A DNA stretch of 64,000 nucleotides from Flavisolibacter longurius (GTDB lineage Bacteria > Bacteroidota > Bacteroidia > Chitinophagales > Chitinophagaceae), in contig JACJGO010000003.1 in assembly GCA_014163555.1 (NCBI GenBank), positions 310,001 through 374,000 of the forward strand. Direction: 5' to 3'. Positions 32,470 through 53,101 of the stretch are shown piece after piece. The translations under genes were made by a program, and so were the position numbers. Below the pieces are notes generated by a model that did not search any database, was not told the DNA's origin, and was given only the letters and a program-made list of their open reading frames with translations. Numbering within the stretch: position 1 is the stretch's first letter; the number at the start of each line of letters is the position of its first letter.

Positions 32470-32480
32470 AATCGGTGGAG

Positions 32481-36160: not shown

Positions 36161-37102
36161 ATGCTACGCTATATGATCCAAAAAAGAACCTGCACGTTTC
36201 TGCTTTTTTTGTATTGCAGCCTTTATGCTCCAGCGCAAAATGTAACCTTAACCAGTGAACAGGTCAAAACCCTGACACCCGATTGGAAGGGCGAACGCTC
36301 AGCCGACGGCAGGCCAAAGGTTGCCGATAACCTGATGGAGCGTCTTAAAAAGATCCGCCTGGAAGAAGCCTGGGGTGTACTGCGCAACAAAGGCTACCAA
36401 AACCAGTTTGAAGGCGACTGGATGGTCCTGCATCCCGATTCCGCTATGGTAGGCCGGGTGGTAACGGCACAATACCTTCCACTGCGCCCCGACTATGACA
36501 AGATCATCAAAGACAAAGGCAAGACCGAGGCAAGAATAGGCGCCACCAACTCCTGGCCCATCGATGTATTGAAGGACGGCGACATTTATGTTGCCGACAG
36601 CTATGGAAAGGTTGTGGACGGCACGCTGATCGGCGATAACCTTGGCAATGCGATCTATGCCAAGTCCAAAAGGGGTGTCATCTTTTACGGTTCGGTACGC
36701 GACGTGGAAGGCCTTAGCGAGATCAAAGGTTTCAACGCCTGGATCAAAGGCTATGATCCTTCCTACATACAACAAATGATGCTGGGTGGCATCAATGTTC
36801 CCATCCGAATTGGCAGGGCAACGGTATTGCCCGGCGATGTGGCCCTGGCAAAAAAAGGCGGTATTGTTTTCGTTCCTGCACACCTCTTGGAAGAAGTGGT
36901 GCTGAATGCAGAATTCATTGGACTCCGTGACCTTTTCGGCCACCAGCGCCTGCGGGAAGGAAAATATACGCCGGGTCAGATCGATACACAATGGACTGAT
37001 GAAATAAAAAAAGATTTCCTCAAATGGCTGGATGAAAACCCGGGCAAACTTCCCATGTCCCGCGCCGAATTGGACCAGTTTATGAAAGCCCGTACCTGGT
37101 AG
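36161..37102 (+). CDS. Exported RraA-family (class II aldolase-like) protein, copy 1
   Basis: The frame is open from 35969, but the signal peptide starts at the ATG at 36161 or the one at 36173 (MIQKRTCTFLLF... ending APAQ), so the mature protein of about 290 residues should be periplasmic. The core is RraA-like: GDIYVADSYGK, GDNLGNAIYAK, GSVRDVEGL (the Arg-Asp pair that binds substrate and metal in HMG/CHA aldolases), LPGDVALAKKGG. Typical RraA is about 160 residues; here an N-terminal DWKGERSADGRP segment and a C-terminal GQIDTQWT...KARTW segment are added. Members of the superfamily cleave 4-hydroxy-2-keto acids to pyruvate. It starts a plus-strand run with an enolase-superfamily dehydratase 53 bp downstream. 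Confidence 0.8.
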   Translation: MLRYMIQKRTCTFLLFLYCSLYAPAQNVTLTSEQVKTLTPDWKGERSADGRPKVADNLMERLKKIRLEEAWGVLRNKGYQNQFEGDWMVLHPDSAMVGRVVTAQYLPLRPDYDKIIKDKGKTEARIGATNSWPIDVLKDGDIYVADSYGKVVDGTLIGDNLGNAIYAKSKRGVIFYGSVRDVEGLSEIKGFNAWIKGYDPSYIQQMMLGGINVPIRIGRATVLPGDVALAKKGGIVFVPAHLLEEVVLNAEFIGLRDLFGHQRLREGKYTPGQIDTQWTDEIKKDFLKWLDENPGKLPMSRAELDQFMKARTW

Positions 37103-37155
37103 CCGGCCGCTCTGTTCAAAACAACTATTTTCTAATCCATTTATACCACACAACC

Positions 37156-38679
37156 ATGACTCCCTCCCAAAAAATTCTGCAAAAGCTGGGGCTGAAAGAC
37201 CCGGAAATGATTGATGATGCCATGCCGGCAAACGCACATACTGACCAGCCAACTTCACCCGAGGAAACGCCGGAAAATCCGCGTCGTTCGTTTTTAAAAA
37301 AATCAGCGCTGGGCGGCCTTGCCCTTGGCAGCTCGGTGCTCCTTTCGCCCATCGAAGAAGTGATTGCACAAAGCACACAGAAAGTGCGGCGCTTTTCTGC
37401 CCCTTCCGACCTGAAAATAACCGACATGCGCTATGCCGTTACCACGGTGCTGGGACGAACGGCCATTATTCGCATCGATACCAACCAAGGCATCTATGGC
37501 CTGGGTGAAGTACGGGATGGCGCCGATGAACGTTATGCCCTTTTCCTGAAAAGCCGCATCCTGGGAAAGAATCCCTGCAACGTGGAGCAGATCTTTAAAT
37601 CGATCCGGCAGTTTGGCGGTCCTGCCCGTCAGGCCGGCGGCGTTTGTGCCGTGGAAATGGCCCTGTGGGATATTGTTGGAAAAGCATACAATGTGCCTGC
37701 CTGGCAATTATTGGGTGGCCGTTACCGTGATAGCATCCGGCTGTATGCCGATACACCCGAAGCCCGGTCGCCCGAAGAGCAAAAAGGGCTGATCAACAAA
37801 CGCATCAACGAGCAGGGTTACACCTGGCTCAAGATGGACGTTTCCATTGGTGAATTAAGAGGAAAACCCGGCACCGTGGTGAACGGCAAGGTGTGGGAAA
37901 ACGAAAGAGGCTTTCTGGCGCAATGGGGCGACCAGGATAACTATATGAGCTATGCAAATACCCTGCACCCGTTTACGCAAATACAGATAACAGACAAAGG
38001 ATTGGATGTGCTGCAACAGGTTGTTGAGAATGTTCGCAGTATGGTAGGATATGAGATTCCAATATCTACAGACCACTATGGGCATTTTGATTACAACAAC
38101 GGCATCCGCCTGGGCAGGGCCTTGGAAAAATACCGGCTGGCCTGGCTCGAAGACATTGTTTCCTGGGAATACACCGACCAATGGAAAACAATGACCGCTG
38201 CACTGGAAACACCCACTCTCACGGGCGAGGATATTTATCTGCTCAAAAATTTCAAGCCCCTGATCGACATCCGGGCCGTGGACATTGTACACCCCGACCT
38301 GGCCTCTTCCGGCGGCTTGCTGGAAACAAAACGTATTGGCGATTACGCCGAAGAATACGGCATTGCCATGGCTATGCACCAGGCCGGAACGCCGGTTTCC
38401 TTTATGGCCAATGTGCATTGCGCCGCAGCCACGCAAAACTTCCTGGCCCTCGAACACCACTCCGTTGACCTGCCCTGGTGGGAAGACCTGGTAAAAACAA
38501 CCGATGGTAGAAAACTGATCACCAAAGGCTATGCAAACCTTCCGCTGACAGCACCAGGACTGGGCATTGAATTGAACGATGACGTGGTGAAAGCCCACCT
38601 GCACGCAACGGATAAATCCTATTTCGCACCAACGCCGCAATGGAATGAAAGACGTTCGCACGACAGGGTATTTAGCTGA
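37156..38679 (+). CDS. Tat-exported enolase-superfamily (MR/MLE) dehydratase, copy 1
   Basis: The 507-residue protein has a twin-arginine signal (PRRSFLKKSALGG) placed unusually late, after a polar 42-residue leader. The rest follows the mandelate racemase/muconate lactonising fold: a capping domain, WLKMDVSIG with the catalytic Lys, metal ligands in STDHYG, WLEDI and GEDIY, and the general-base His in AMHQAGTP. These enzymes dehydrate acid sugars to 2-keto-3-deoxy acids. It lies between an exported RraA protein and a BASS transporter, which suggests dehydration, aldol cleavage and uptake of products (inference). The substrate acid cannot be named. An alternative is a non-dehydratase member of the superfamily. 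Confidence 0.83.
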   Translation: MTPSQKILQKLGLKDPEMIDDAMPANAHTDQPTSPEETPENPRRSFLKKSALGGLALGSSVLLSPIEEVIAQSTQKVRRFSAPSDLKITDMRYAVTTVLGRTAIIRIDTNQGIYGLGEVRDGADERYALFLKSRILGKNPCNVEQIFKSIRQFGGPARQAGGVCAVEMALWDIVGKAYNVPAWQLLGGRYRDSIRLYADTPEARSPEEQKGLINKRINEQGYTWLKMDVSIGELRGKPGTVVNGKVWENERGFLAQWGDQDNYMSYANTLHPFTQIQITDKGLDVLQQVVENVRSMVGYEIPISTDHYGHFDYNNGIRLGRALEKYRLAWLEDIVSWEYTDQWKTMTAALETPTLTGEDIYLLKNFKPLIDIRAVDIVHPDLASSGGLLETKRIGDYAEEYGIAMAMHQAGTPVSFMANVHCAAATQNFLALEHHSVDLPWWEDLVKTTDGRKLITKGYANLPLTAPGLGIELNDDVVKAHLHATDKSYFAPTPQWNERRSHDRVFS

Positions 38680-38694
38680 TGTGCCGGCAGGGTA

Positions 38695-38740
38695 AAAAAC
38701 AAAGCGGCGCATAAAGACAAAAGACCGCTGTTTTCTTTCT
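38695..38740 (+). terminator. Possible weak terminator after the dehydratase
   Basis: AGCGG and CCGCT form a short stem with a large loop, flanked by an A-run and then TTTTCTTTCT. It lies 16 bp past the stop codon. The stem is short and the loop long, so partial read-through into the BASS gene is likely. Confidence 0.3.
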
Positions 38741-38762
38741 ACATAAAAAAATCTTTCAGTTT

Positions 38763-39905
38763 ATGCCAACAGCAAAACATTCGGTTTATACGCTCTTTTA
38801 TTTTTTGGCCGTGGGCTTTCTGCTTGCCTACATCGCCATATCATTTAGCAGCCTTGCTCCTTACGCTGGCTGGCTGCTGATGTTGTTCTTTGTTAGTGTA
38901 GCCATTGCTTTCCGCGGCAATAAAGTGCTCCGCGGACTTTCTTACACCCTGGTGATTCTGGGGGCGGTAAGCCTGGCCATGTACTATCCCGATTATTTCA
39001 AATCCGCCGGAGATTTTAAATTTTCAGCCCTCATTGTTCCCCTGTTGCAGATCATCATGTTTGGTATGGGCACCGAGTTAAGCATGAAAGACTTTGCCAA
39101 CGTTGTGCGCATGCCCAGAGGAATCATTGTAGGCATTGCCTGCCAGTTTACCATTATGCCCTTCGTTGGCTTTGCACTGGTCAATATGTTTTCGTTCCCG
39201 CCGGAGATAGCGGCCGGGGTGATCCTGGTGGGTTGTTCGCCCAGTGGGCTGGCCTCCAACGTCATGTCTTACCTGGCTAGGGCTAACCTGGCACTTTCCG
39301 TTTCCATTACCACTGTTTGCACCCTGCTGGCGCCCTTCCTAACGCCCTTGCTTATGCGTATTTTGGGAGGAAGCCTTGTAGAGATCAGCTTTCTGGCTAT
39401 GATGTGGGATATCACCAAGATTGTCATTCTTCCTATTGCTGCGGGTTTGCTGTTCAATTCTCTGGTACGGGGCAGGTTTGGTTGGCTGGACAAGGCCATG
39501 CCTATCCTGTCGATGGCCGGCATTACGCTGATCATTATTGTGATCACAGCGGCAGGAAGGGATAACCTGCTACAGGTAGGTGCCCTGCTGATTGTGGCGG
39601 TGCTGCTCCACAACCTGGCGGGCTATTTCCTGGGGTACTGGTCGGCACGCCTGCTGAAGTTCCCGGAAAAGGATTGCAGAACGGTGGCGCTGGAAGTGGG
39701 CATGCAAAACGCTGGGCTGGCATCGGGCCTTGCCCTCACCATGGGCAAGCTGGCCACTACCGGTTTAGCTGCTGCTATTTTCGGTCCCACGATGAATGTA
39801 ACCGGTTCGCTTCTTTCAAGCTGGTGGCACAACCGTCTGCCGAAGGAAGACATCGAAACCGAAAAAGCAGCAAGCCCGGAGGTGACCATTGCACCGGTTA
39901 GCTGA
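38763..39905 (+). CDS. BASS-family (bile acid:sodium symporter-type) transporter
   Basis: The 380-residue inner-membrane protein has about ten hydrophobic helices. The BASS signature is present as GMGTELSMKDFANVV and, after it, VGCSPSGLASNVMSYLARANLALSV, the crossing-helix region. Family members move bile acids, pyruvate, pantothenate or other organic anions with sodium. Placed after an exported aldolase homologue and an exported dehydratase, it could import pyruvate or another keto acid made in the periplasm (inference). It follows the dehydratase by 83 bp and precedes a broken Gfo/Idh/MocA gene by 127 bp. Confidence 0.85.
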   Translation: MPTAKHSVYTLFYFLAVGFLLAYIAISFSSLAPYAGWLLMLFFVSVAIAFRGNKVLRGLSYTLVILGAVSLAMYYPDYFKSAGDFKFSALIVPLLQIIMFGMGTELSMKDFANVVRMPRGIIVGIACQFTIMPFVGFALVNMFSFPPEIAAGVILVGCSPSGLASNVMSYLARANLALSVSITTVCTLLAPFLTPLLMRILGGSLVEISFLAMMWDITKIVILPIAAGLLFNSLVRGRFGWLDKAMPILSMAGITLIIIVITAAGRDNLLQVGALLIVAVLLHNLAGYFLGYWSARLLKFPEKDCRTVALEVGMQNAGLASGLALTMGKLATTGLAAAIFGPTMNVTGSLLSSWWHNRLPKEDIETEKAASPEVTIAPVS

Positions 39906-40032
39906 TGGCGTTTTCCCTAACCCTGTTTGTTGGCCCTGCACCAAAGTTGGAAGGGTTATTCAAAGCTGGCGACAGGCTGTTTCTGTTTTCTCCATTATTT
40001 TAAAATATTTTCAATCGCTAAACAATTGATGT

Positions 40033-41142
40033 ATGAATACACGCCGCGACTTTTTGGAAAAACTGGTCGTTCCCCTGATTGCGTTGCCTGTTCTTACCGG
40101 AAGGGCACCCGGTCGTAAAAAAAGCCTTTCTTCCCAGGGCCCTGTATTGCGTGTGGCCATTATGGGATTGGGAAGTTATGGCACCCGGGTGGCCGAAGCT
40201 TTGCGGGATTGTAAGCGGGCAAAGCTGGTTGGCGTTATCAGCGGCACGCCGTCCAAGATAACCGACTGGCAATAGAAATACAACATACCGGAAAAGAACT
40301 GTTACAACTACCAGAACTTCGACAACATTAAAAACAACCCCGATATTGATGCGGTGTACATCATCACTCCCAACTCGCTGCATAAAGACCAGGCGATCCG
40401 GGTGGCCAGGGCGGGCAAGCATGTGATCTGTGAAAAGCCCATGGCGCTCAATGCCCGTGAAGCAGAGGAGATGATCGCGGCCTGTAAAAAGGCGGGTGTG
40501 CACCTGTTGGTGGGGTACCGGTTGCATTTTGAACCCAAAACACTTGAGATTATCCGCATGCGCAACGCCGGGGAATTGGGAAAGATCAAATTCTTCCAAG
40601 GACTGGCCGGCTTTCGCATTGGCGACCCAAACCAATGGCGGTTGAACAAAGCCCTGGCGGGCGGCGGCGCCCTGATGGACATTGGCATTTACGCGGTGAA
40701 TGGTGCCCGGTACATGGTAGGCGAAGAACCGGTTTGGGTAACGGCACAGGAAACCAAAACCGATCTGCAAAAATTCAAGGAAGGCGTGGACGAGACCATT
40801 CAGTTCCAGCTGGGTTTTCCGGGCGGCGCGGTGGCTTCCTGTTTGTCAACCTACAGCATGAGCTACCTCGACCGGTTTTACCTCAATGGCGAAAAAGGTT
40901 TTGCAGAATTGCACCCGGCTACCGGTTACGGTCCCATAAAAGGCCGCACCCACCAGGGCGAATTAACCCAGCCGCATGCCACCCATCAAACGGTTCAGAT
41001 GGATGAAATGGCGGCCATTATCCTTGACGGGAAAAAAGCCCTTGTACCGGTGGATGGTGAAGAAGGCTTGCGTGACCTCAGGATCATGGATGCCATTTAT
41101 GCAGCCGCAAAAAGCGGTAAAAAAATGGAAATAAAACAATAA
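40033..41142 (+). pseudogene. Gfo/Idh/MocA oxidoreductase interrupted by an in-frame TAG
   Basis: The gene should encode about 369 residues but has an amber codon at 40273-40275 after residue 80. Reading through it, the same frame continues in family sequence (KYNIPEKNCYNYQNF, DIDAVYIITPNSLHKDQA, HVICEKPMALN, with the EKP catalytic-site motif). One base change from AAG (Lys) would make the TAG. The N-terminus has a Tat signal (NTRRDFLEKL) and VAIMGLGSYGTRVAEAL as the NAD(P)-binding motif. Exported members oxidise or hydrolyse sugars with a retained cofactor. The C-terminal 262 codons contain an ATG at 40354 but would lack the cofactor fold. It is either a recent pseudogene, a sequence error, or a suppressed stop. 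Confidence 0.85.
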
Positions 41143-41319
41143 GCGAAGCCGGAACAACAGGCTGCGGTGGTTGAAGGAAAGATGATTTCATCGCATCCCG
41201 CAAGCCGGTTTGTTTTTGTTCCTTATATTGAAGGCGTACAATGGACGCAGGAGGGGTGAAACCCGGTGCGCTTTCAATGGCGTATGCCTTGGGCGTACCG
41301 CAGATTCGTTGCAGGTTAA

Positions 41320-43980
41320 ATGTTTACAGAAATAAAAATTTTTATGATCCAAATAAATAGAGGAAGGCCGGTTCTGGCCCTTGTGCTGTTTGCAGTTTTG
41401 GTTTTACCTGCTATAAAAAGTCAAGGCCAAACAACCTATCCGTTTCAGAACACGGCACTTTCATTTGAGCAGCGGGTGGATGACCTGGTGTCCCGCCTGT
41501 CGCTGGAAGAAAAAGTGGCGCAAATGCTGAACGCCGCACCGGCTATCCCACGGTTAGGCATACCCGCATACGACTGGTGGAACGAAGTGTTGCACGGCGT
41601 AGCCCGCACACCGTACAGGGTAACCGTTTTCCCGCAGGCCATTGCTATGGCGGCCACCTTTGATACGGTTTCGCTGAAACAAATGGCCGCTTATTCTGCA
41701 CTGGAAGGGAGGGCGGTTTACAACAAAGCCATCCAGGACGGCCGCGCTGGGCAACGTTATGTAGGCCTTACCTACTGGACGCCCAACATCAACATCTTTC
41801 GCGACCCCCGCTGGGGCCGGGGACAGGAAACCTATGGCGAGGATCCTTACCTAACGGGCATGCTGGGTAGCGCATTTGTAAGAGGCCTGCAGGGCGATCA
41901 TCCTAAATACCTGCTGGCTGCTGCCTGCGCCAAACATTACGCCGTACACAGCGGGCCCGAACCGCTACGCCATGTGTTTAACGTGGCACCAAACAACCAT
42001 GACCTGTGGAATACCTACCTGCCGGCTTTTCAGCAGTTGGTTACGGGTACAAACGTAGCGGGGGTGATGTGCGCCTACAATGCATTCAAGGGGCAACCCT
42101 GCTGCGGCAGCGACCAACTGATGGTGGACATCCTGCGCAACCAGTGGAAATTTACCGGCTATGTTACTTCCGACTGCTGGGCAATAGACGATTTTTTCAA
42201 AAACCATAAAACACATCCCGATGCCGCCAGTGCTTCTGCCGACGCCGTGCTGCACGGAACCGACATCGACTGCGGAACCGATGCCTATAAATCGCTGGTA
42301 CAGGCCGTGCAGCAGGGAAAGATCACCGAAAGCCAGATCGATGTTTCGGTAAAGCGGCTTTTTATGATCCGCTTCCGTTTAGGTATGTTCGATCCGCCTT
42401 CGATGGTGCCGTTTGCGCAAACGCCGACTTCGGTGCTGGAAGCGGCCGAACACAAGGCACACGCCTTGAAAATGGCCCGGCAGTCGGTTGTGCTGCTGAA
42501 AAACGAAGGCAATACCCTGCCGTTGAAAAAAAGCATCAAAAAAATTGCGGTGCTCGGACCCAATGCCGACAACGCCATTGCCGTACTGGGCAACTATAAC
42601 GGCATTCCTTCCAACATTGTTACGGCATTGCAGGGCATTCAAACCAAACTGCCCGGTGCCCAGGTAGTGTATGAAAAGGCTGTCAACTTTACCAACGATA
42701 CTCTGCTGCAATACAACGATATTAGCGGGCAGCTTTCCTGGCAGGGACAACCCGGCTTTGGAGCAGAATATTTCAACAACCGCGAACTGAAAGGTGAACC
42801 CATCGCCCGGCGTACCGAAACGGCCATTGATCATAACTGGCAGGAAGGGCAGATCGTGGTGGATACGCTGAAGGCCTATGATTTTTCGGTTCGCTACACA
42901 ACCGATTTTACAGCCGCCACTACCGGGAGCATCACTTTTGAACTGGAGGCCGATGACGGCTACCGCTTTTTGGTGGATGGAAAAGAAGTAGTAAATGCCT
43001 GGCTGCGCAACCGCTGGGGTGCCCGCACCCACCGCCTGCAAACAGTGGCCGGCAAAACCTATCGCCTGGTGCTGGAATATTTCCAGGGCGATGGCAAGGC
43101 ATCGGTGCGCCTGCGTGCCGGCAGTTTGGTGAAAAGTGATTTTGCGGCCCTGGCCAGTCGCCTGAAAGACGCCGATGCCATCGTGTATGTGGGCGGTATT
43201 TCGCCGCAGCTCGAAGGCGAGGAAATGAAAGTGGATTATCCTGGTTTTAACGGCGGCGACCGTACCTCCATCCTGCTGCCGGCGGTGCAAACCAATTTGA
43301 TGAAAACACTTAAAAGCACAGGCAAGCCGGTAGTCTTTGTGATGATGACCGGCAGCGCCATTGCTACACCCTGGGAGTCGGAAAACATACCCGCCATTGT
43401 AAACGCCTGGTATGGCGGGCAGGATGCCGGTACGGCCATTGCCGATGTACTGTTTGGCGATTACAATCCATCCGGCCGCCTGCCCTTGACCTTTTACAGG
43501 AGCGACAGCGACCTGCCCGATTTTTCGGATTACAACATGCAGGGCCGCACTTACCGTTATTTCAGCGGCGAGCCGCTTTACCACTTTGGTCATGGCCTCA
43601 GTTATACAACCTATCGGTACAGCAATTTGGCTGTGCCTTCCGCTGTGAAGAGGGGCCGCCAGGTAACGGTACGGGTAAGTGTAACCAATGCCGGCCGGAT
43701 GGATGGCGAAGAAGTGGTACAGTTGTATGTTTCCGGCAAAGGGGGCAACGGGCCCTTTCCCATCCGTTCACTTAAAGGCTTTCAGCGCATTGCTCTGAAA
43801 GCCGGCGAGACAAAGCAGGTACTTTTTACCCTTACAAAGGATGACCTGGCCCTCGTAGGCGAGAACGGCAAAACGATTCCGTTTACCGGGCCGGTAACCA
43901 TCACCGTTGGTGGCGGGCAACCCCATGCCGCTGCGTTTAAAAACAAAACGACGCTACAGGCAAATTTGGTAATTCAATAA
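41320..43980 (+). CDS. GH3 beta-glycosidase (xylosidase/glucosidase type) with PA14 domain
   Basis: The 886-residue exported enzyme has a signal peptide ending KSQGQ and then the GH3 start LGIPAYDWWNEVLHGVA, a form common in beta-xylosidases of this family. The nucleophile is D285 in GYVTSDCWAIDDF. A PA14 domain lies at about 475-605 (FGAEYFNNRELKG and LEADDGYRFLVDG), inserted in the C-terminal sandwich, and a fibronectin-like domain ends the protein. It would remove beta-linked xylose or glucose from oligosaccharides. A second possible start is the ATG at 41344. It is followed after only 2 bp by a GH43 gene, a strong operon indication, and GH43 with GH3 fits arabinoxylan degradation. Confidence 0.9.
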   Translation: MFTEIKIFMIQINRGRPVLALVLFAVLVLPAIKSQGQTTYPFQNTALSFEQRVDDLVSRLSLEEKVAQMLNAAPAIPRLGIPAYDWWNEVLHGVARTPYRVTVFPQAIAMAATFDTVSLKQMAAYSALEGRAVYNKAIQDGRAGQRYVGLTYWTPNINIFRDPRWGRGQETYGEDPYLTGMLGSAFVRGLQGDHPKYLLAAACAKHYAVHSGPEPLRHVFNVAPNNHDLWNTYLPAFQQLVTGTNVAGVMCAYNAFKGQPCCGSDQLMVDILRNQWKFTGYVTSDCWAIDDFFKNHKTHPDAASASADAVLHGTDIDCGTDAYKSLVQAVQQGKITESQIDVSVKRLFMIRFRLGMFDPPSMVPFAQTPTSVLEAAEHKAHALKMARQSVVLLKNEGNTLPLKKSIKKIAVLGPNADNAIAVLGNYNGIPSNIVTALQGIQTKLPGAQVVYEKAVNFTNDTLLQYNDISGQLSWQGQPGFGAEYFNNRELKGEPIARRTETAIDHNWQEGQIVVDTLKAYDFSVRYTTDFTAATTGSITFELEADDGYRFLVDGKEVVNAWLRNRWGARTHRLQTVAGKTYRLVLEYFQGDGKASVRLRAGSLVKSDFAALASRLKDADAIVYVGGISPQLEGEEMKVDYPGFNGGDRTSILLPAVQTNLMKTLKSTGKPVVFVMMTGSAIATPWESENIPAIVNAWYGGQDAGTAIADVLFGDYNPSGRLPLTFYRSDSDLPDFSDYNMQGRTYRYFSGEPLYHFGHGLSYTTYRYSNLAVPSAVKRGRQVTVRVSVTNAGRMDGEEVVQLYVSGKGGNGPFPIRSLKGFQRIALKAGETKQVLFTLTKDDLALVGENGKTIPFTGPVTITVGGGQPHAAAFKNKTTLQANLVIQ

Positions 43981-43982
43981 CG

Positions 43983-45713
43983 ATGATAATGATGATGAAC
44001 AGAATTTTAGTATTCGCTTTTTTTCTTTTTGGTTTTATTCGCTCCGGAGCGCAGCAGGCGGGGATGTACACCAACCCGATCCTGGCAGGTTTTTATCCTG
44101 ATCCTAGCATTTGCCGCGCAGGCGACGATTATTACATTGTCAACTCTTCTTTTTCCTATTATCCCGGCCTGCCCATCTTTCACAGCAAGGACCTGGTTAG
44201 CTGGACGCAGATCGGTCATGCGCTGGACAGGCCCGGGCAACTTCCCCTGATCGGTGCCGGTGTTTCCCGCGGGCTGTTTGCCCCTGCCATCTCGTATTAC
44301 AAAGGAACCTTTTACATTGTGTGTACGCTCATCGACAGGGGCGGCAATTTTGTAATTACGGCCACCAATCCCGCAGGCCCCTGGAGCGATCCGGTTTACC
44401 TGAAAGAAGTAAGCGGCATCGATCCCTCGCTGTTTTTTGACGAAAGCACCGACAAAGCCTACATTGTTTACAACAGCGAACCGCCGGGAAACAAAACACT
44501 TTGGAACGGTCACCGCACCATCCGCCAGTACGAGTTTGATTACCGAAACAAAAAAGTGGTGGGCGAAGAAAGGCTGCTGGTAAACGGCGGCGTGGATACA
44601 TCGAAGCACCCGGTGTGGATCGAAGCGCCGCATATCTACCATATAAACGACTGGTATTACCTGATGTGCGCCGAAGGTGGAACGGCCTACAATCACTCCG
44701 AAGTTGTTTTCCGCAGCAAATCCCCCGAAGGGCCCTTTGTTCCCTGGGAAAAGAATCCCATTTTAACCCAACGGCACCTTGACCGGGCCCGCAAAAATCC
44801 GGTCACCACAGCGGGCCATGCCGACCTGGTGCAAACGCAGAACGGCGACTGGTATGCCGTGTACCTTGCGTGCAGGCCCTACGAAGGCGATCATTACAAC
44901 ATTGGCAGGGAAACGTTTTTAAATCCCGTGACCTGGACAGAAGACGGCTGGCCGGTGATCCTGAAAGGGGAGGAGGCCGTGCAGTATCAATACCCGCTTC
45001 CGCTGCCGAACGTTAACCCGAAACCTGTCAATCCTTTCAGTGGAAATTTTGTATTCAGGGATGATTTTAACAGCAAGCGCCTGAACTTCCGTTTCACCTT
45101 TTTACGAACGGTTACCGATAGGTGGCACAATACAACCGATAAGAACGGCTGGCTAACGGTGCAGTTGCGGCCGCAAACCGTAAGCGGAAGGGATAACCCT
45201 TCGTTTGTTGGCTTTCGGCAGCAACACCACCAGGCAGTGGCTACGACGAAGCTGCAATTCACACCGGCTGCTGCAAACGAAAAAGCAGGCATGGTGATCT
45301 TTCAGAACGAATCGCATTTTTATTACCTGTGCAAATCCCTGGAAGGCGGTAAGCCTGTTGTGCAGCTTTACAAATCCACAAAAGATTCTATGGAACTGCT
45401 GACATCGGTACCGCTGCCAACGGCAAACGGCGATGTTTATCTGCGCATCCAACCAAAGAAGTCCGTGTATGCAACCGCGTATTCCACCGATGGTAAAAAA
45501 TGGAACTCTTTGCAGGAGGTGGATGGAAAGTTCCTGAGCACTGCAACGGCGGGTGGCTTTGTGGGCAGCGTGTTTGGACTGTATGCAACGTCGCTGGGAA
45601 AAGAAAGCCGGAACAAAGCTCTCTTCGACTGGTTCGACTACAAGGGAGAGGATGATGTGTTCAAAGGCCTGGCAAAGGAAAACCGGCCAAGAAAGGACCC
45701 GGCCAGGCGTTAA
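43983..45713 (+). CDS. GH43 beta-xylosidase/alpha-L-arabinofuranosidase
   Basis: The 576-residue exported enzyme starts with several in-frame ATGs (MIMMMNR) and a signal ending GAQQ. The five-bladed propeller shows the three GH43 acidic residues: D40 in GFYPDPSIC (base), D147 in SGIDPSLFF, and E214 in VWIEAPHIY (acid). The C-terminal concanavalin-like domain (about 360-560, from FVFRDDFNSKRLNFRF) is the one found in xylosidases of this family. It would release xylose or arabinose from xylan-type oligosaccharides. It begins 2 bp after GH3 and ends before a strong terminator, so GH3-GH43 form a two-gene unit or the end of a longer operon. Confidence 0.9.
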   Translation: MIMMMNRILVFAFFLFGFIRSGAQQAGMYTNPILAGFYPDPSICRAGDDYYIVNSSFSYYPGLPIFHSKDLVSWTQIGHALDRPGQLPLIGAGVSRGLFAPAISYYKGTFYIVCTLIDRGGNFVITATNPAGPWSDPVYLKEVSGIDPSLFFDESTDKAYIVYNSEPPGNKTLWNGHRTIRQYEFDYRNKKVVGEERLLVNGGVDTSKHPVWIEAPHIYHINDWYYLMCAEGGTAYNHSEVVFRSKSPEGPFVPWEKNPILTQRHLDRARKNPVTTAGHADLVQTQNGDWYAVYLACRPYEGDHYNIGRETFLNPVTWTEDGWPVILKGEEAVQYQYPLPLPNVNPKPVNPFSGNFVFRDDFNSKRLNFRFTFLRTVTDRWHNTTDKNGWLTVQLRPQTVSGRDNPSFVGFRQQHHQAVATTKLQFTPAAANEKAGMVIFQNESHFYYLCKSLEGGKPVVQLYKSTKDSMELLTSVPLPTANGDVYLRIQPKKSVYATAYSTDGKKWNSLQEVDGKFLSTATAGGFVGSVFGLYATSLGKESRNKALFDWFDYKGEDDVFKGLAKENRPRKDPARR

Positions 45714-46535: not shown

Positions 46536-46646
46536 TAGCGGATCCTTTTGCCTGTTGCACAACGTTCCGTGCTGGACATTTCAAAACCTGCAAAACGGCT
46601 TTCCACGCTACCTGTAACCAGTGCTAAAATCATAAAACCTTTCCCC

Positions 46647-48236
46647 ATGCTTACCGGACATAATTTTATCGGCTTTGAAAAAGTGGCCGCAGGCGAAAAA
46701 AAGCTGCAGGCCTTCAGTACTATTTTGCAATCGCATCTCCCCGGTGAGTTTGTTGCCGCCACGGAAGAAGAAACAGGGCAGGCGGTGGCAAAAGCAGCCG
46801 CCGCGTTTGACCTGTACCGACAAACATCCAATGAAGAACGGGCCCTTTTTTTAGAGGCCATTGCCGATGAGATCATGCAGTTGGGAGAAGCGCTGATCGA
46901 ACGCTGCCACCAGGAGTCGGGGCTGCCGCCAGCCCGCATCACAGGAGAGCGGGGCCGCACCGTCGGGCAACTGCGCCTCTTTGCAGAACTTTTGCGGGAA
47001 GGCTCTTTTGTTGAGGCCATCATTGACACAGCCCTGCCGGCCCGTATGCCCCTGCCACGTGCCGACCTGCGCCGCATGCTGCACCCCGTTGGCCCCGTTG
47101 CCGTGTTTGCAGCCAGCAATTTCCCCCTGGCATTTTCCACCGCCGGCGGCGATACGGCTTCGGCCCTGGCGGCAGGCTGCCCGGTTGTGGTGAAAGCACA
47201 CAGCTCACACCTGGGAACAAACGAACTGGTGGCAACTGCTATACTCAAAGCGGCTGAAAGTTGCCGGATGCCCGATGGTGTTTTTTCTTCCCTTGTGGGC
47301 GAGGGATCAATACTTGGACAGCAACTGGTAAAGCATCCCCTCATCAAAGCCGTTGGCTTTACCGGTTCGTTCAGGGGCGGCATGGCCCTGTTAAAAGCAG
47401 CCGTCAACGAAAGGGATAAGCCCATTCCCGTGTATGCGGAAATGAGCAGCATTAATCCCGTGCTGGTGCTGCCCGGTAAACTGGCGCAGGCAATGGAGGA
47501 GGTGGTTACGCAACTTTCAGCCTCCATCACCCTTGGCGTTGGACAGTTTTGCACCAACCCGGGATTGGTGTTTGTGTTGAAAGACGATACCACCGAAGCC
47601 TTTGTGCAGGCGCTTGCCAGGGCCCTGCAAAACGTGCAGGCCGGCACCATGTTGAATGAAACCATTTGCGCTGCCTATCACCAAGGGCAGCAGCAACTTT
47701 TGTCGGAAGAAGGCGTGGCCGCCGTACTGCGTGGAAATGATAGCAGTGCCCGATTCATGGGTAGCGCTTCGCTGGGGCAAACAACGGCATCAACTTTTAT
47801 CCAAAACAAAGCCCTGCAAAACGAGGTGTTTGGGCCCGCCTCGCTGGTGGTGGTTTGTGAGGATGAGAACGATCTGCAGGCGGCCCTTCAGGCCCTGCAC
47901 GGGCAACTAACGGGAACGGTCATGGGCACACCTGAAGATATCAAACGGTTCCGGAGCTGCGTATCCCTGTTGGTGCAAAAAGTGGGACGGATGATCTGCA
48001 ACGGCGTGCCTACCGGCGTTGAGGTTTCTCATGCCATGATGCACGGCGGGCCCTTTCCCGCAACAACGTTCGCCCATTTTACTTCCGTGGGTACCGAAGC
48101 CATCAAACGATTTTTGCGGCCGGTTTGTTACCAGGACTTTCCGCAGGAACTTCTTCCCGCAGCCCTGCAGGATGAAAACCCGCTGCGCATTATGCGAAAG
48201 CTGAACGGGGAGTTTACACGGAATGCAGTTGAATAA
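46647..48236 (+). CDS. Alpha-ketoglutaric semialdehyde dehydrogenase (NADP-type aldehyde dehydrogenase)
   Basis: The 529-residue cytoplasmic enzyme is an aldehyde dehydrogenase of the 2,5-dioxovalerate branch: PVAVFAASNFPLAFSTAGGD early on, the general-base Glu E265 in YAEMSSINP and the nucleophile C302 in GVGQFCTNPG. It would oxidise 2-oxoglutarate semialdehyde to 2-oxoglutarate, the last step of non-phosphorylative pentose and sugar-acid routes, and also of hydroxyproline or glucarate breakdown. The frame is open from a TTG at 46548, but the family sequence begins at the ATG at 46647 (MLTGHNFIG). It stands alone on the plus strand, convergent with an RraA gene. Function well supported, with substrate inferred from family. 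Confidence 0.85.
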   Translation: MLTGHNFIGFEKVAAGEKKLQAFSTILQSHLPGEFVAATEEETGQAVAKAAAAFDLYRQTSNEERALFLEAIADEIMQLGEALIERCHQESGLPPARITGERGRTVGQLRLFAELLREGSFVEAIIDTALPARMPLPRADLRRMLHPVGPVAVFAASNFPLAFSTAGGDTASALAAGCPVVVKAHSSHLGTNELVATAILKAAESCRMPDGVFSSLVGEGSILGQQLVKHPLIKAVGFTGSFRGGMALLKAAVNERDKPIPVYAEMSSINPVLVLPGKLAQAMEEVVTQLSASITLGVGQFCTNPGLVFVLKDDTTEAFVQALARALQNVQAGTMLNETICAAYHQGQQQLLSEEGVAAVLRGNDSSARFMGSASLGQTTASTFIQNKALQNEVFGPASLVVVCEDENDLQAALQALHGQLTGTVMGTPEDIKRFRSCVSLLVQKVGRMICNGVPTGVEVSHAMMHGGPFPATTFAHFTSVGTEAIKRFLRPVCYQDFPQELLPAALQDENPLRIMRKLNGEFTRNAVE

Positions 48237-48354
48237 ACAGCCGTCAGCCTGTGGTAAGACTTCTGAAAGTTGCCGTTCTGGAATAGGAACCGAAATGACT
48301 TTGAGTGATTAGACCGCTCGTTGCACAGCAATTTTCTTTGCATGCCGGTAAAGA

Positions 48355-49278
48355 CTACCAGGTTCGTTTGCCCATGATTGTGTCCAGTTCTGAACGGGTC
48401 ATCCTACCCAGTTCGGGGTGCTTTTCCAGCCAGGCCAGAAATGCTGTTTTGATCTCAAAGGTCCATTGGCTGTCGATCTGCCCCGTGGTATATTTTCCCG
48501 TACGCACCATTTCAAATCCAAACTGGTCTTTGCGAATCACAAATTCTGCCGTGCTCACCACCTGTTCGGCCAGGTGGGCCGGAACAAACAACACACCTTC
48601 GGGCTGAGCGATTACCAGGTCGCCCGGCAGCACAATGGCCTGTCCAATCCGAATAGGCGTGTTCAATCCCATGAGCAGCATTTCTTCGGTAAACGAAGGG
48701 TGAAAATCCCGCACAAAAGCATTGAAGCCCCTGATCTTCGATATCTCCAGCAGGTCGCGGGCCGCACCGTCAAACACAACGCCGTTGCCGGATTTGGCGT
48801 AAATGGAATTGGCCAGCGTTGCTCCCATAATGCCGCCGCCGCTGATCTTTCCAAACGCATCGGCAACATAAAGGTCGCCTTTCACCAGGATGTCAATCGG
48901 CCAGGCATTGGTGTTGCCAGTTCGTCCCTGTTGGGCACCCCTTTCTTTGATGGACTTCTCCACATCGGGCCGGCTGGGCAGGTACATTGCCGTAACGGCA
49001 CGGCCGGTCATAATGCTGTCGTTCACGGTTTTCCAGGTGCCTTCAAACTGGTTCAGGTAGCCTTCGTTCTTCAACACCGTCCAGGCATCATCAATATAGA
49101 TTCGTTTGGCCCTATCCAAGATGTCGTCCGGCAGCCTGGGCCGGCCATCGGCAAACCGTTCTCCCTTCCAGGCGGCGGTAAGAAAGACCAGTTCTTCTTT
49201 GGAGATGGTTTGCGCCTGAGCAGCGTTCTTCAATCCTGGGCTAAGCAAAATAATCAGGAGGGAAAAAATTGCTTTCAT
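48355..49278 (-). CDS. Exported RraA-family (class II aldolase-like) protein, copy 2
   Basis: The 307-residue protein has a signal peptide (about 1-23, ending QAQ) and the same layout as the other two copies: AAWKGERFADGRPRLP, GDLYVADAFGK, LANSIYAKSGNGV, GAARDLLEI with the Arg-Asp pair, LPGDLVIAQPEG, VFVPAHLAEQV, GQIDSQWT and the C-terminal KRTW. These sites match those used by class II pyruvate aldolases of the RraA/HMG-aldolase superfamily. It is the last gene of the AraC-headed minus-strand group, 104 bp after GntP. True RraA regulators of RNase E are cytoplasmic and shorter, so that role is unlikely. Confidence 0.8.
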   Translation of the reverse strand: MKAIFSLLIILLSPGLKNAAQAQTISKEELVFLTAAWKGERFADGRPRLPDDILDRAKRIYIDDAWTVLKNEGYLNQFEGTWKTVNDSIMTGRAVTAMYLPSRPDVEKSIKERGAQQGRTGNTNAWPIDILVKGDLYVADAFGKISGGGIMGATLANSIYAKSGNGVVFDGAARDLLEISKIRGFNAFVRDFHPSFTEEMLLMGLNTPIRIGQAIVLPGDLVIAQPEGVLFVPAHLAEQVVSTAEFVIRKDQFGFEMVRTGKYTTGQIDSQWTFEIKTAFLAWLEKHPELGRMTRSELDTIMGKRTW

Positions 49279-49382
49279 GTGCTGGGACTTTCAGAATGAT
49301 TGGTGAGAGAAATAAGGACAGGTTTTTTGTTGCTGAAAACTGTTTTTCTGCAAGGCTCTTTCATTATGAAGAGAAAATTTTC

Positions 49383-50696
49383 TCAAATAAAACTGTTGAT
49401 CAGGAGCACCATTACTAGGCCCAGGATGGAGATGGTTGTTTCCATCACTGTCCAGGAAGCAAATGTTTGTTTTAGCGATAACCCAAAGAACTCTTTGAAC
49501 ATCCAAAACCCCGAATCGTTGATATGGGAGCCAAACACGCTGCCGGCCCCAACGGCCAGCACCATCAGTTCCGGCGAAACGGTACCACTGGCCACCAGCG
49601 GCGCCACGACGCCGGCAGCGGTGATGCCGGCTACTGTAGCCGAACCAACGGTTACCCTAAGCATGGCCGTTACCACCCAGGCAAACACCAGGGGATGCAT
49701 GCGCCATTTGCTGCTGAAAGAAGCGATATACGCCCCGCTGCCGCTGTCGATGAGGATTTGCTTCAACACGCCACCAGCGGTAATAATGAACAGGATCACG
49801 GCAATGCCGGAGATGCCCTTGTTGAGCCAGTCCATCACTGTTGTCATGGGGTGGCCGCGCTGCAGGCCGAAATACGATCCTGCCATCAACACCGAAAACA
49901 GGAGAGCAATGGTAGGCTCACCGAAAAAAGTGGCCAGCTTTCGCAGGATGCTTTCATCCGGGAGGGCCTGGTTGGCAATCACGGAAATCGTGATGAGGAG
50001 AACGGGCAGCAAAGCGATCAGGAAGCTGGGTACCACCGGTGGCAGTACATCGTATTTTGGCGGCTCGTTCAGCACCAAGTCCTTGTTGCCCCCGGTTTTT
50101 ACATGGCGCAGCAAGCGGCCCAACAGCGGGCCGGCAACGATCACCGTGGGAATGGTCATGATCAACCCGTACAAAAGCGTCTTGCCCGTGTTTGCATTAA
50201 AAGCGTTGACCAGAACCACGGGCCCGGGGTGTGGCGGCAGAAAACAATGCGTGGCCGATAGCGAAGCCGCCATGGGAATGGCAATGTACAAAAGCGGAAG
50301 GCCGGTGGTGCGGGCCAGCGTAAAGATCAGGGGAACGAGGATGACAAAGCCGGCATTGTAATAAAGCGGAATGCCGATAAGAAAGCCAGTTGCCAGCACC
50401 GCCCACTGGATGTTCTGTTCGCCGAAGCGCCGGATGAGTGTTACCGAGATCTGTTCCGCTGCGCCGCTGATCTCCAGGATCTTTCCCAGTACGGCGCCCA
50501 GGCAAAGAATCAGGGCCAGCCCGCCCAGGGTGCTGCTCACCCCTTTTTCAATGGAGGTGAGTACAGCCGCAGGCTCCATACCCATCAAAAAGCCGGTCAG
50601 GATGGATACGATCAACAGCGATAAAAAAGGACTGACCTTTTTTGCCGTTAAAAATACCTGCATACCGATGGCGAACAGAAGGATAAGAAATGGCAT
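49383..50696 (-). CDS. GntP-family gluconate:proton symporter
   Basis: The 437-residue protein has about twelve membrane helices and the GntP family pattern: KVSPFLSLLIVSILTGFLMG at the start, LALILCLGAVLGKILEISGAA, CFLPPHPGPVVLVNAF and, near the end, GSVFGSHINDSGFWMFKEFF. Family members import gluconate or related aldonates with protons. It lies in the same run as a gluconokinase-type kinase and an enolase-superfamily dehydratase, which supports an aldonate substrate. Spacing to neighbours is 85 and 104 bp. Length is normal. Confidence 0.9.
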   Translation of the reverse strand: MPFLILLFAIGMQVFLTAKKVSPFLSLLIVSILTGFLMGMEPAAVLTSIEKGVSSTLGGLALILCLGAVLGKILEISGAAEQISVTLIRRFGEQNIQWAVLATGFLIGIPLYYNAGFVILVPLIFTLARTTGLPLLYIAIPMAASLSATHCFLPPHPGPVVLVNAFNANTGKTLLYGLIMTIPTVIVAGPLLGRLLRHVKTGGNKDLVLNEPPKYDVLPPVVPSFLIALLPVLLITISVIANQALPDESILRKLATFFGEPTIALLFSVLMAGSYFGLQRGHPMTTVMDWLNKGISGIAVILFIITAGGVLKQILIDSGSGAYIASFSSKWRMHPLVFAWVVTAMLRVTVGSATVAGITAAGVVAPLVASGTVSPELMVLAVGAGSVFGSHINDSGFWMFKEFFGLSLKQTFASWTVMETTISILGLVMVLLINSFI

Positions 50697-50781
50697 GGGA
50701 TTGTTTTAGTGTATGCCTAACCGGGAATGGATAGTGGCGGCATGTGATGATCTTTTTTCAGTTCTAAGAAGAAAATTGACG

Positions 50782-52062
50782 CTACGCAAAGAAGGGCACA
50801 TTGGGAATGGCGTGTTTTTTCATGCCATCCTCGTTCATGTCAACACCGATGCCCGGCTTGTTGGAAACCGTGATAAAGCTTTTCTCCACCCATTCGCCCT
50901 CGTATTTCACGATCTCTTTGAACATGGGGTTGGTATGGAAATACGACTGCCACTCCATCACCATAAAATTGGGCACAGAGGCACAGACATGGGCACAGGC
51001 CATGGCGCCCAGGAAAGAAGCCACCATGTGCGGGGCAAAGGGTACATAATACAGGTTGGCCAGGTTGGCGATACGCTGTCCTTCGCCCAGGCCGCCGGCT
51101 TTTTGCAGGTCGGGCATCACAATGTCCACGGCGCCAATTTCCAGCAGCCGCCGGAAACCATAAGCGAGGTAATGGTTTTCGCCTGCACAAATGGGCGTGC
51201 TGGTAGAGTCGGTAATTTTTTTATAGGCTTCGGGGTTCTCGGCGGGAATGGGTTCTTCCAGCCACATCAAGTTTAGGGGCTCCATCAATTTCGCCACCCG
51301 TTCTCCGGTGGGTGCATCATAACGGCCATGCATATCCACACAAATATCCACGTCGGGTCCAACGGCTTCTCTTGCTGCCGTCATCTGGTCCACCATGCGG
51401 CGCAGTTCCATCGGGCTGGCCGTCCAGTTGTAGCGGTCGTATTTTCCTGGATCGCTGGCCTGGTCCAGGTCAAATTTAATGGCATTAAATCCCATATCTT
51501 TTGACCGTTTGGCGGCTTCGGCAAAGTCCTTTGGTTGCGGGTTGGTAGATTGATAAAGAGCCGTGTCGCAATACACTCTTACCTTGTCGCGAAACTTGCC
51601 ACCCAGCAACTGGTAAACGGGAATGTTCAGCGCCTTGCCGGTAAGGTCCCAAAGCGCCGTTTCGATGGCAGACAAAACGGCGATATACATGCCTGCCTGC
51701 GCTCCCTGGAAAACACCGCCCTTGCGGAACTCTTCAAAGATGCGGTGAACGTTCAAGGGGCTTCGGCCCTTGAGCCGCGACCCAAACATTTTTACAAGGT
51801 GGTACGTACCGGGGATGGCATCCACGCCTTCGCCCCAGCCGATAATATCCTGGTTGGTGGTCATCTTCACAAACAGGCTGCCCCTGATATAGGCACAGGT
51901 CACGTCTTTTATGGTAAGATCAGAAGGCGGTGAGGTTTTGGGTGTTTTTTCCACGGCTTCTTCCAGTCCCTGGCCAAAACCGGCTAAAGAAACAAAGGGT
52001 GTCATTGCCGCAGCGATGGCTGCTTTGCTAAGAAACGTTCTTCTTGAACTTGACATAAGCAT
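50782..52062 (-). CDS. Tat-exported enolase-superfamily (MR/MLE) dehydratase, copy 2
   Basis: The open frame reaches 52125, but the Tat signal (SSSRRTFLSKAAIAAA) begins at the ATG at 52062 or the one at 52056; the upstream codons lie in a short repeat and look non-coding. The mature protein follows the enolase superfamily: FNAIKFDLDQA with the catalytic Lys, VDMHGRYD, WLEEPIP and CAGENHYL for metal binding, and APHMVASFLGAMA with the catalytic His. It resembles galactonate/mannonate-type dehydratases more than copy 1 does. It would turn an acid sugar into a 2-keto-3-deoxy acid. It lies between an exported RraA gene and GntP. Substrate unknown. Confidence 0.83.
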   Translation of the reverse strand: MLMSSSRRTFLSKAAIAAAMTPFVSLAGFGQGLEEAVEKTPKTSPPSDLTIKDVTCAYIRGSLFVKMTTNQDIIGWGEGVDAIPGTYHLVKMFGSRLKGRSPLNVHRIFEEFRKGGVFQGAQAGMYIAVLSAIETALWDLTGKALNIPVYQLLGGKFRDKVRVYCDTALYQSTNPQPKDFAEAAKRSKDMGFNAIKFDLDQASDPGKYDRYNWTASPMELRRMVDQMTAAREAVGPDVDICVDMHGRYDAPTGERVAKLMEPLNLMWLEEPIPAENPEAYKKITDSTSTPICAGENHYLAYGFRRLLEIGAVDIVMPDLQKAGGLGEGQRIANLANLYYVPFAPHMVASFLGAMACAHVCASVPNFMVMEWQSYFHTNPMFKEIVKYEGEWVEKSFITVSNKPGIGVDMNEDGMKKHAIPNVPFFA

Positions 52063-52099
52063 TGAGTTGATCGGGTGAAAAAAATTGAATTCTGTTTGT

Positions 52100-52137
52100 G
52101 CCAATTGCCAATTGTCTATTGCCAATTGTCTAATGCC
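52100..52137. repeat. Short GCCAATT/GTCTA repeats
   Basis: GCCAATT occurs at 52100, 52107 and 52121, and GTCTA at 52114 and 52128, in the short gap between the RraA copy 3 stop and the dehydratase start. Because CAATTG is palindromic, small hairpins are possible. Confidence 0.6.
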
Positions 52138-52144
52138 TCCCGGC

Positions 52145-53101
52145 CTACCAGGTCCTCTCTTTGAGAAATTGCTGAATGGTTTCTTTGGGAACCGGCAGCT
52201 TGTCCATGTGATCGTTCAGCCATTTCGAAAAATCCTTTTCAATGGCGTCGCTCCAGCGGGTATCAATTTGCCCGGCGGTGTAGGTGCCTTCCCGCAGGCG
52301 CTGGTGGCCAAACATATCCCGCAGGCGTACGATCTCCGATGTAGTGGCCACCCGCTCGGCCAGGTGAGGCGGAATAAAAACAACTACCCCCATCTTGCCC
52401 AGCACTACATCACCGGGCATAACCGTCACCGTGCGGATGCGGGTGGGATGGTTGATGCCTACGATCATCGTCGTCAGGTCGCGGCCCGGGCCTGCACCGG
52501 GGTTGTGGTAAGAAGGATCATAGCTGGTATAAAACGACGTAAAGCCGCCGATCTCTTTGAGGCCTTCGAGGTCTCTTATAGCGCCATCGTACACAATGCC
52601 GTTGCCGGTTTTGGCATAGATGGAATTGCCCACGTTATCGCCAATGGTAGGCCCGTTGCGCTTGGCGCCAAACTGGTCGGCCACATATACATCACCCTTT
52701 ACCAGCATTTCAACCGCCCATACGTTCTGCGCCCTTCTTCCTTCTTTTTTCCCGATGGAATCGATGGCCTGCCATAAATCGGGACGGCCGGGCATGAAGG
52801 TGGCCGTTACCGCACGGCCCACCAGTACACTATCGGGGTTGATCATTTCCCAGCCTTCGGCTATCTGGTACCGGTAGCCTGCATTGCTCAGGGTTGACCA
52901 AGCCTCTTCCACACTAACGGCCTTCATCCGCCGTAAAATTTCATCCGGCACTTTGGGTCTTCCGTCCGGGAACCGCTCACCCTTCCATTCTGCAGTCAGG
53001 GCTATAAGGTCGGCTTTAGAGATCTGCACGGATTGTGCATCGATTTGTTTCCATCCCAGATAAAAAATGAAAAAGAAGAAAAGCCGTTTCGTTGCGAACA
53101 T
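52145..53101 (-). CDS. Exported RraA-family (class II aldolase-like) protein, copy 3
   Basis: The 318-residue protein has a hydrophobic leader (residues 6-18, ending DAQ) and matches the other two copies block by block: AEWKGERFPDGRPKVP, GDVYVADQFGA, GDNVGNSIYAKTGNGI, GAIRDLEGL with the Arg-Asp pair, MPGDVVLGKMG, VFIPPHLAERV, GQIDTRWS and the C-terminal KERTW. An insertion with GAGPGRDLTTM follows the YDPSYHN segment and is absent from copies 1 and 2. It sits between the FGGY kinase (78 bp) and the second dehydratase (about 83 bp). Proposed activity is periplasmic retro-aldol cleavage of a 2-keto acid; not demonstrated. Confidence 0.8.
   Translation of the reverse strand: MFATKRLFFFFIFYLGWKQIDAQSVQISKADLIALTAEWKGERFPDGRPKVPDEILRRMKAVSVEEAWSTLSNAGYRYQIAEGWEMINPDSVLVGRAVTATFMPGRPDLWQAIDSIGKKEGRRAQNVWAVEMLVKGDVYVADQFGAKRNGPTIGDNVGNSIYAKTGNGIVYDGAIRDLEGLKEIGGFTSFYTSYDPSYHNPGAGPGRDLTTMIVGINHPTRIRTVTVMPGDVVLGKMGVVVFIPPHLAERVATTSEIVRLRDMFGHQRLREGTYTAGQIDTRWSDAIEKDFSKWLNDHMDKLPVPKETIQQFLKERTW

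Follow-up and report, generated by a model that had tools for sequence, protein, structure and literature searches.

A candidate periplasmic sugar-acid module of exported RraA-family and MR/MLE proteins in Flavisolibacter longurius

We analyzed a window of 64,000 nucleotides from the 5.66 Mb genome of Flavisolibacter longurius (assembly GCA_014163555.1, contig JACJGO010000003.1, positions 310,001 to 374,000 of the forward strand). It encodes three RraA-family proteins (RraA1, RraA2, and RraA3) and two MR/MLE proteins of the enolase superfamily (MR1 and MR2), together with a BASS and a GntP transporter. The seven genes lie where the first-pass annotation had placed them, and domain models confirmed their families. 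Sequence comparisons gave good support for the coupling of RraA with MR and for the export of both partners, with a predicted periplasmic location. The enzyme families are already known; the exported, paired layout is, to our knowledge, the new part. We propose a two-step sugar-acid module that would operate in the periplasm and be encoded in hemicellulose loci. Its dehydratase would form a 2-keto-3-deoxy acid, the RraA partner would consume it, and BASS would import a 2-oxo acid. We give this proposal about an even chance of being correct.

Pairing and predicted export of the RraA and MR proteins

Related loci were the best 80 of at least 571 confirmed GTDB relatives, ranked by nearness to RraA3 and not drawn at random. 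Named relatives place the genome in the phylum Bacteroidota, and strains carrying the cluster include Segetibacter koreensis, Parafilimonas terrae, and members of Spirosoma and Algoriphagus. The nearest RraA3 among the matches listed belonged to Flavisolibacter longurius (95% identity), in a scan that may omit the window's own genome. In 74 of the 80 loci, an RraA3-type gene was followed by an MR2-type gene on the same strand. The same arrangement was found for RraA1-type and MR1-type genes in 27 of 34 cases, and for RraA2-type and MR1-type genes in 2 of 7; RraA2 usually had no adjoining dehydratase gene. A tblastn search placed an MR gene in 78 of the 80 loci; the remaining loci, L063 and L076, are truncated by a contig end no more than 360 bases past the RraA gene.

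The co-occurrence of the two families, which the first-pass annotation had expected to be conserved, was borne out in a phylum sample of 296 genomes that included the window's own. The RraA type was present in 18 genomes (profile E-value 1e-30) and the MR type in 15 (1e-70), all 15 being among the 18 (Fisher test, p = 1.3e-22, kinship ignored). Of 30 RraA hits, 24 had an MR hit within 3 kb and 21 had one within 300 bases; conversely, 25 of the 26 MR hits had an RraA hit within 3 kb. Correlated distances were rejected as evidence of coupling. The correlations for RraA3–MR2 (r = 0.48) and RraA1–MR1 (r = 0.72) were matched by the crossed pairs RraA1–MR2 (0.44) and RraA3–MR1 (0.72); therefore, they reflect species kinship only. 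An RraA–MR fusion was likewise discarded: among the long frames at G363, G337, and G179, those bearing RraA did not resemble MR1 or MR2 in BLAST comparisons. In a metagenome-assembled genome (MAG) titled Acidobacteria (L119), the MR2-type gene stands beside RraA3 but is oppositely oriented, whereas most loci have the two on one strand.

Export was assessed by rules: a hydrophobic stretch before the anchor motif for RraA, and a twin-arginine motif within residues 1–90 for MR. By eye, the N-terminus of each RraA protein of the window is hydrophobic and closes with an AxA-like site a short distance ahead of the WKGER segment, in line with the leaders described earlier. The 80 loci contain 121 RraA-type open reading frames (ORFs). 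The anchor motif was found in 109, and in 108 of these it was preceded by a hydrophobic stretch; the sole anchored protein with no leader (L058) is cut by a contig end. Among the 12 ORFs lacking the anchor motif, 11 have a leader by eye, and that of L078 is broken or mis-started.

The twin-arginine motif occurred in 112 of 113 MR homologues, the exception being a fragment in L078; as a background, the pattern was found in 23 of 756 other neighboring ORFs of at least 150 aa. The NCBIfam model for twin-arginine translocation (Tat) signals has a cut-off of 16.7 bits. MR1 passed it with 22.3 bits; MR2 fell just under it at 15.9 bits, yet carries SRRTFLSK. The twin-arginine signals first noted in both proteins hold. 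Four of the five MR homologues submitted passed the model, and L028 scored just under it (16.6 bits). TatC is encoded in the genome. MR1 carries about 40 residues ahead of its twin-arginine motif (37156–37290), beginning MTPSQKxLxxLGLKD, and similarly in L018 and L048; this is an unusually long n-region.

Families, catalytic residues, and fold

The genome contains three matches to PF03737, all in the window, with scores of 55.5–63.9 bits against a curated cut-off of 24.5. The added segments WKGER..DGRP, GQID..W, and RTW, recognized in the first reading, are invariant across the three proteins. The Arg-Asp pair proved intact, as had been claimed, and was invariant in 64 of 64 aligned proteins, five FlDet-like proteins included (FlDet is discussed below). 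The proteins had also been described as twice the usual RraA length. This is true relative to the E. coli-type model (161 positions), but not relative to the nearest NCBIfam subfamily model (NF006093, 240 positions). The best PDB match of the RraA profile was Streptomyces coelicolor RraAS2 (5X15, 270 aa), titled in the PDB as a member of the RNase ES inhibitor family, which aligned to profile positions 51–286 of 307 (E = 1.8e-30). Given this alignment and the length of NF006093, the mature protein is extended by about 25–40 residues at each terminus. The RraAS2 alignment covers most of the mature RraA protein, so part of the C-terminal addition is common to both; the WKGER segment falls outside the alignment.

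The view of the three RraA proteins as one kind did not stand: they fall into three regions of the tree, with two metal-site motifs among them. RraA1 and RraA3 have D-X20-R-D, and RraA2 has A-X20-R-D-X2-E. The positions scored correspond to Asp102, Arg123, and Asp124 of the Pseudomonas putida aldolase, counted from the alignment; Arg123 is named in the available excerpt of PMC5065237. In the 80 loci, D-R-D was present in all 80 RraA3-type proteins and in 30 of 34 of the RraA1 type, the other four having S-R-D with a Glu three residues on. All seven RraA2-type proteins have A- or S-R-D plus a Glu three residues on. The motif of the class was reportedly given by Mazurkewich in 2014 as D-X20-R-D or G-X20-R-D-X2-E/D. 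RraA1 and RraA3 fit this class II pyruvate aldolase motif, and RraA2 is a near variant with A for G. According to the excerpted text of PMC5065237, most homologues carry one of two such motifs and hence are likely class II pyruvate aldolases.

The AlphaFold2 model of RraA3 (pLDDT 90.7) showed an RraA fold, and its top Foldseek matches were the RraA-fold entries 3K4I, 5X15, 5IR2, and 3NOJ. The last of these, the HMG/CHA aldolase of P. putida F1 (E = 2.1e-13), has the fold and the D-X20-R-D metal and pyruvate site in common with RraA3, whose D155, R176, and D177 align with its upstream Asp and R-D pair. It differs in serving an aromatic-acid route, in its low identity (17%), and in being shorter (238 aa).

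A quick maximum-likelihood tree of 74 proteins placed 65 exported RraA proteins on one side of a branch with 99% support, opposite the FlDet-like proteins and a second exported set; the program warned that long branches meet at this branch. Support was 100 for the RraA3 type, 94 for the RraA2 type, and 87 for the RraA1 type. L067_10, labeled RraA1, joined the RraA3 side, and the S/A..E motif required at least two changes on the tree. A second, distinct set of RraA-family proteins in the phylum (L104, L105, L106, L107, L109, L110, L111, L112, L114, and L115) forms another exported group. Its members have about 257–300 aa and, by eye, a hydrophobic leader; close to the N-terminus they carry 'RVADV.DG' or a related sequence. 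L005, a record titled Williamsia sp. MAG, holds a Chitinophagaceae-like locus (RraA3 85% identical) and is probably a mis-binned contig.

Both MR proteins contain the N and C domains of MR_MLE (Pfam). Residues D264, E290, E316, and H366 were invariant in 79 MR2 and 34 MR1 sequences (at least 380 aa, window copies included). MR2 keeps D264-M-H266, E290, E316, and H366. MR1 keeps the metal ligands and the second His, with D-H-Y (29 of 34) or D-H-F (5 of 34) replacing D-x-H. The His of D-x-H is an acid/base in galactonate- and mannonate-type dehydratases. Since MR1 lacks this residue, MR1 and MR2 probably handle acids differing in stereochemistry. The galactonate and mannonate dehydratases DgoD and ManD belong to the same fold family and have the metal ligands in common with the MR proteins, and MR2 also shares D-x-H and the second His. 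The window proteins differ from them in their Tat leaders and, in MR1, by D-H-Y, and they stayed under every NCBIfam equivalog cut-off listed; for galactonate dehydratase, the scores were 251.6 (MR2) and 179.1 bits (MR1) against 311. The nearest PDB chain to MR2 was 2QQ6, an MR/MLE-like protein with no named function.

Proposed reaction of the RraA partners

Sugar-acid dehydration and keto-acid breakage are normally cytoplasmic chemistry. The proposed periplasmic module is based on the leaders of both partners, the adjacent specific pairs (MR2–RraA3 and MR1–RraA1), the retained metal-site and catalytic residues, and the frequent location in hemicellulose loci. SusCD would bring oligosaccharides in, and periplasmic glycosidases and a lactonase would release sugar acids. 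From two acids of different stereochemistry, MR1 and MR2 would form 2-keto-3-deoxy acids by dehydration. The RraA partner with D-X20-R-D would take the MR product, most likely by retro-aldol cleavage to pyruvate and an aldehyde, and BASS would import the resulting 2-oxo acid. Plant and bacterial members of the BASS family carry pyruvate and other 2-oxo acids. A parallel cytoplasmic branch may consist of GntP, IlvD/EDD and FAH enzymes, an aldehyde dehydrogenase (ALDH) resembling alpha-ketoglutaric semialdehyde (KGSA) dehydrogenase, and an FGGY kinase.

By analogy, aldol cleavage is the most likely reaction of RraA1 and RraA3, because the site is common with the aldolase, a BASS gene is present, and the DNA examined for 72 of the 80 loci contains no ALDH homologue. 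For RraA2, a semialdehyde route is as likely as aldol cleavage. The aldol step is the weakest link of the module, and the coupled export is its firm part.

Several results weigh against the module as drawn. The signal peptides were called by simple rules, and the aldehyde product has no clear sink among the cluster genes. For 6 of the 30 RraA hits in the phylum sample, no MR hit lies within 3 kb. A second sample covered 149 genomes from the phylum to which L069, a MAG titled Acidobacteria, belongs; six of them, including that of L069 itself, have the RraA type. An MR gene lay beside RraA in two of them, G296 and G363 (L119, L130, and L125; a second RraA hit of G363 was left out), and tblastn placed MR genes in L125 and L131. 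In the other four genomes, tblastn found no MR in the stretches read (L126 to L129, 10–11 kb each), and therefore RraA and MR are not obligate partners everywhere. The RraA proteins of these four stretches are more distant (36–47% identical to RraA1).

An oxidative step by a pyrroloquinoline quinone (PQQ) dehydrogenase was rejected as a fixed part of the module. This enzyme and a leader-bearing lactonase adjoin the pair in L010 and L024, but homology placed it in only these two of the 80 loci at the cut-off used; L006_11 begins with PQQ-dehydrogenase-like sequence but is cut by a contig end. The window genome's own PQQ dehydrogenase is on another contig (37% identical); its neighbors there, judged by eye, resemble a GMC oxidoreductase and a protein with DUF1080. 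In L126, a stretch in which no MR gene was found, a PQQ-dehydrogenase-like protein (8426–10561, by eye) is encoded about 2 kb from the gene for an exported RraA.

A further objection comes from FlDet of Flavobacterium sp. UMI-01 (deposited as LC519890), likewise a Bacteroidota RraA-family enzyme acting on a 2-keto-3-deoxy sugar acid. In the excerpted text of PMC8563752, FlDet is a dehydratase/decarboxylase that turns 2-keto-3-deoxyglucarate into KGSA; the neighbor of fldet, oriented oppositely, is the KGSA dehydrogenase gene fldeg, with an alginate lyase gene flanking. This precedent helps the module idea and leaves the reaction type open. The RraA partners may thus be FlDet-like dehydratases or dehydratase/decarboxylases yielding KGSA, which would be taken up and oxidized by the ALDH at 46548 in a Weimberg-type route with a periplasmic first half. 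We consider this rather unlikely. The gene context agrees with it at RraA2: the window ALDH, convergent with RraA2, shares 50% identity over 411 aa with the ALDH next to the FlDet-like gene of L099, where the gene order matches fldeg–fldet–flalex (lyase by reading of the sequence). However, ALDH was found in just 8 of the 80 loci, a set in which contig ends truncate many members, and the enzyme shows no leader, so the semialdehyde would need to cross the inner membrane. RraA3 is only 22–26% identical to the five FlDet-like proteins, which served as proxies for FlDet and indicated no close kinship with it; all five lack a leader (by eye), and the 99% branch separates them from the exported set, although long branches meet there. 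As excerpted in PMC8563752, FlDet itself differs in its size (about 27 kDa), its source (cell extract), its alginate route, and its neighbors. The metal-site motif was discarded as a test of aldolase versus dehydratase. It cannot decide the reaction, because L099 carries D-X20-R-D and the other four FlDet-like proteins S-X20-R-D-X2-E.

The substrate could instead be glycan-linked or methylated uronic acids, with MR beta-eliminating the 4-substituent (e.g., methanol from 4-O-methylglucuronate) and RraA processing the unsaturated or keto product. Near the pair, nine Spirosoma loci carry a GH67 alpha-glucuronidase, and most of these also have a glucuronoyl esterase, UxuA, an SDR, or an MFS transporter. 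A 4-O-methylated acid would not be processed by the ordinary glucuronate route, and the D-H-Y site of MR1 is unusual. Nevertheless, these Spirosoma loci have the MR2 pair and not MR1, the DNA examined for the other 71 loci contains no GH67, with arabinofuranosidase or esterase genes in some instead, and we know of no MR enzyme for such an elimination. This makes the uronic-acid route improbable. Slightly less probable still is a non-catalytic role of RraA as an accessory or regulatory protein of the exported dehydratases. E. coli RraA, a protein-binding regulator of RNase E, shares the fold (2YJV was among the Foldseek matches), but the invariance of the R-D pair, the retention of the metal Asp in 110 of 114 RraA1- and RraA3-type homologues, and the presence of RraA with no nearby MR in several genomes argue for catalysis. 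An RNase-type regulatory role was rejected as unlikely for exported proteins.

Gene neighborhood and implications

The genes of the window form two runs with short gaps (Table 1). The minus-strand run comprises the AraC, FGGY kinase, RraA3, MR2, GntP, and RraA2 genes; the plus-strand run comprises RraA1, MR1, and BASS, then the Gfo/Idh/MocA gene.

Table 1. Features of the window, with positions counted from its first nucleotide.
Feature	Position	Strand	Basis
IlvD/EDD-family dehydratase, candidate cytoplasmic aldonate dehydratase	29113..30834	-	
SusD-like and SusC-like outer-membrane uptake pair	30931..35630	-	SusC: TonB plug and related domains; SusD by eye and position
RraA1, RraA-family protein with leader, D-X20-R-D, paired with MR1	36161..37102	+	PF03737, 63.9 bits; leader by eye
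MR1, MR/MLE protein with Tat leader, D/E/E ligands kept, D-H-Y replaces D-x-H	37156..38679	+	PF13378/PF02746; Tat model, 22.3 bits
BASS transporter; nearest named model PanS (ketopantoate/pantoate), score under cut-off	38763..39905	+	
Gfo/Idh/MocA oxidoreductase gene, RR leader, in-frame TAG stop in assembly	40033..41142	+	
GH3 and GH43 glycosidases	41320..45713	+	
ALDH resembling alpha-KGSA dehydrogenase, convergent with RraA2; no leader by eye	46548..48236	+	
RraA2, RraA-family protein with leader, A-X20-R-D-X2-E	48355..49278	-	Motif; tree group support 94
GntP-family transporter, gluconate:H+ symporter type	49383..50696	-	TIGR00791, 490.9 bits, above cut-off
MR2, MR/MLE protein with Tat leader, galactonate-dehydratase-like, D-x-H and second His kept	50782..52056	-	Tat leader begins near 52056; longest ORF reaches 52125
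RraA3, RraA-family protein with leader, D-X20-R-D, paired with MR2	52145..53101	-	PF03737; AlphaFold2 model, RraA fold
FGGY kinase, gluconokinase-like, below model cut-off	53180..54706	-	
AraC-type regulator, head of minus-strand gene run	54718..55644	-	
SMP-30/gluconolactonase-type lactonase, leader by eye	55892..56887	+	PF08450, 132.7 bits
FAH-family protein, candidate cytoplasmic 2-keto-3-deoxy acid enzyme	56903..57730	+	PF01557

Further neighbors in the window are a GH127-type protein and two rhamnosidases (GH78-type and GH106). The Gfo/Idh/MocA homologues of L018 and L048 are open frames, and the stop in the window is a pseudogene mark or a sequencing error. The region 5164–11862 contains PSCyt1/PSCyt2/PSD1/DUF1501 genes (a planctomycete-type cytochrome set) and a xylose-isomerase-like TIM barrel, flanked by the rhamnosidases. 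At 23023–27678, a protein of 1551 aa combines DUF4011, AAA helicase parts, REase_MTES_1575, and DUF3320; it is a candidate nuclease-helicase defense protein.

Neighbor-gene counts across the 80 loci are lower bounds, because contig ends cut many loci, and they may also run low through ORF picking, which retained the longest of overlapping frames. BASS was found in 48 loci, SusC homologues in 41, SusD in 30, AraC in 26, and FGGY in 25. Lower counts were obtained for IlvD/EDD (9), ALDH (8), FAH (5), GH3 (5), GntP (4), SMP-30 (3), Gfo (3), and GH43 (1). Homology placed GH67 in 9 and UxuA in 10 loci, all of Spirosoma, and a CE15-like (glucuronoyl) esterase in 6, one of which is L048. A Pfam scan of 136 unlabeled neighbor ORFs from 32 loci gave small counts. 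The first set of 70 yielded seven putative esterases, three arabinofuranosidase C-domains, two GH43, and two acetyl xylan esterases; the second set of 66 yielded two GH67, two UxuA, and one GH10. The sugar-acid setting suggested earlier was thus recovered in the window or its relatives (GH43, GH67, glucuronoyl esterase, UxuA, and lactonase), and these glycosidase, esterase, UxuA, and lactonase neighbors point to glucuronoarabinoxylan-type material.

Sugar chemistry in the periplasm of Bacteroidota has likewise been proposed for the 3'-ketolactose route (LacABC and DUF1080; excerpt of PMC9007349), which uses other enzymes and other reactions. The exported RraA–MR pair was not found described in a full-text search confined to open-licence literature, which is a weak negative, and the excerpted part of a mat-consortium reconstruction with an Algoriphagus genome (PMC5507952) does not mention it.

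On a wider view, Bacteroidota may complete a non-phosphorylative breakdown in the periplasm: oxidation or hydrolysis, delactonization, dehydration by Tat-exported enolase-superfamily enzymes, and C–C cleavage by exported RraA. Only pyruvate-like 2-oxo acids would then be imported, through BASS, and reactive aldehydes would stay out of the cytoplasm. We offer this wider scheme tentatively and are more inclined to doubt than to accept it. If the proposed module is real, part of the carbon of plant fiber would be cut to small units before cell entry, and BASS proteins would gain additional transport substrates. At least 571 related loci, for which NCBI models name no product above cut-off (three proteins tested), would also gain a function.

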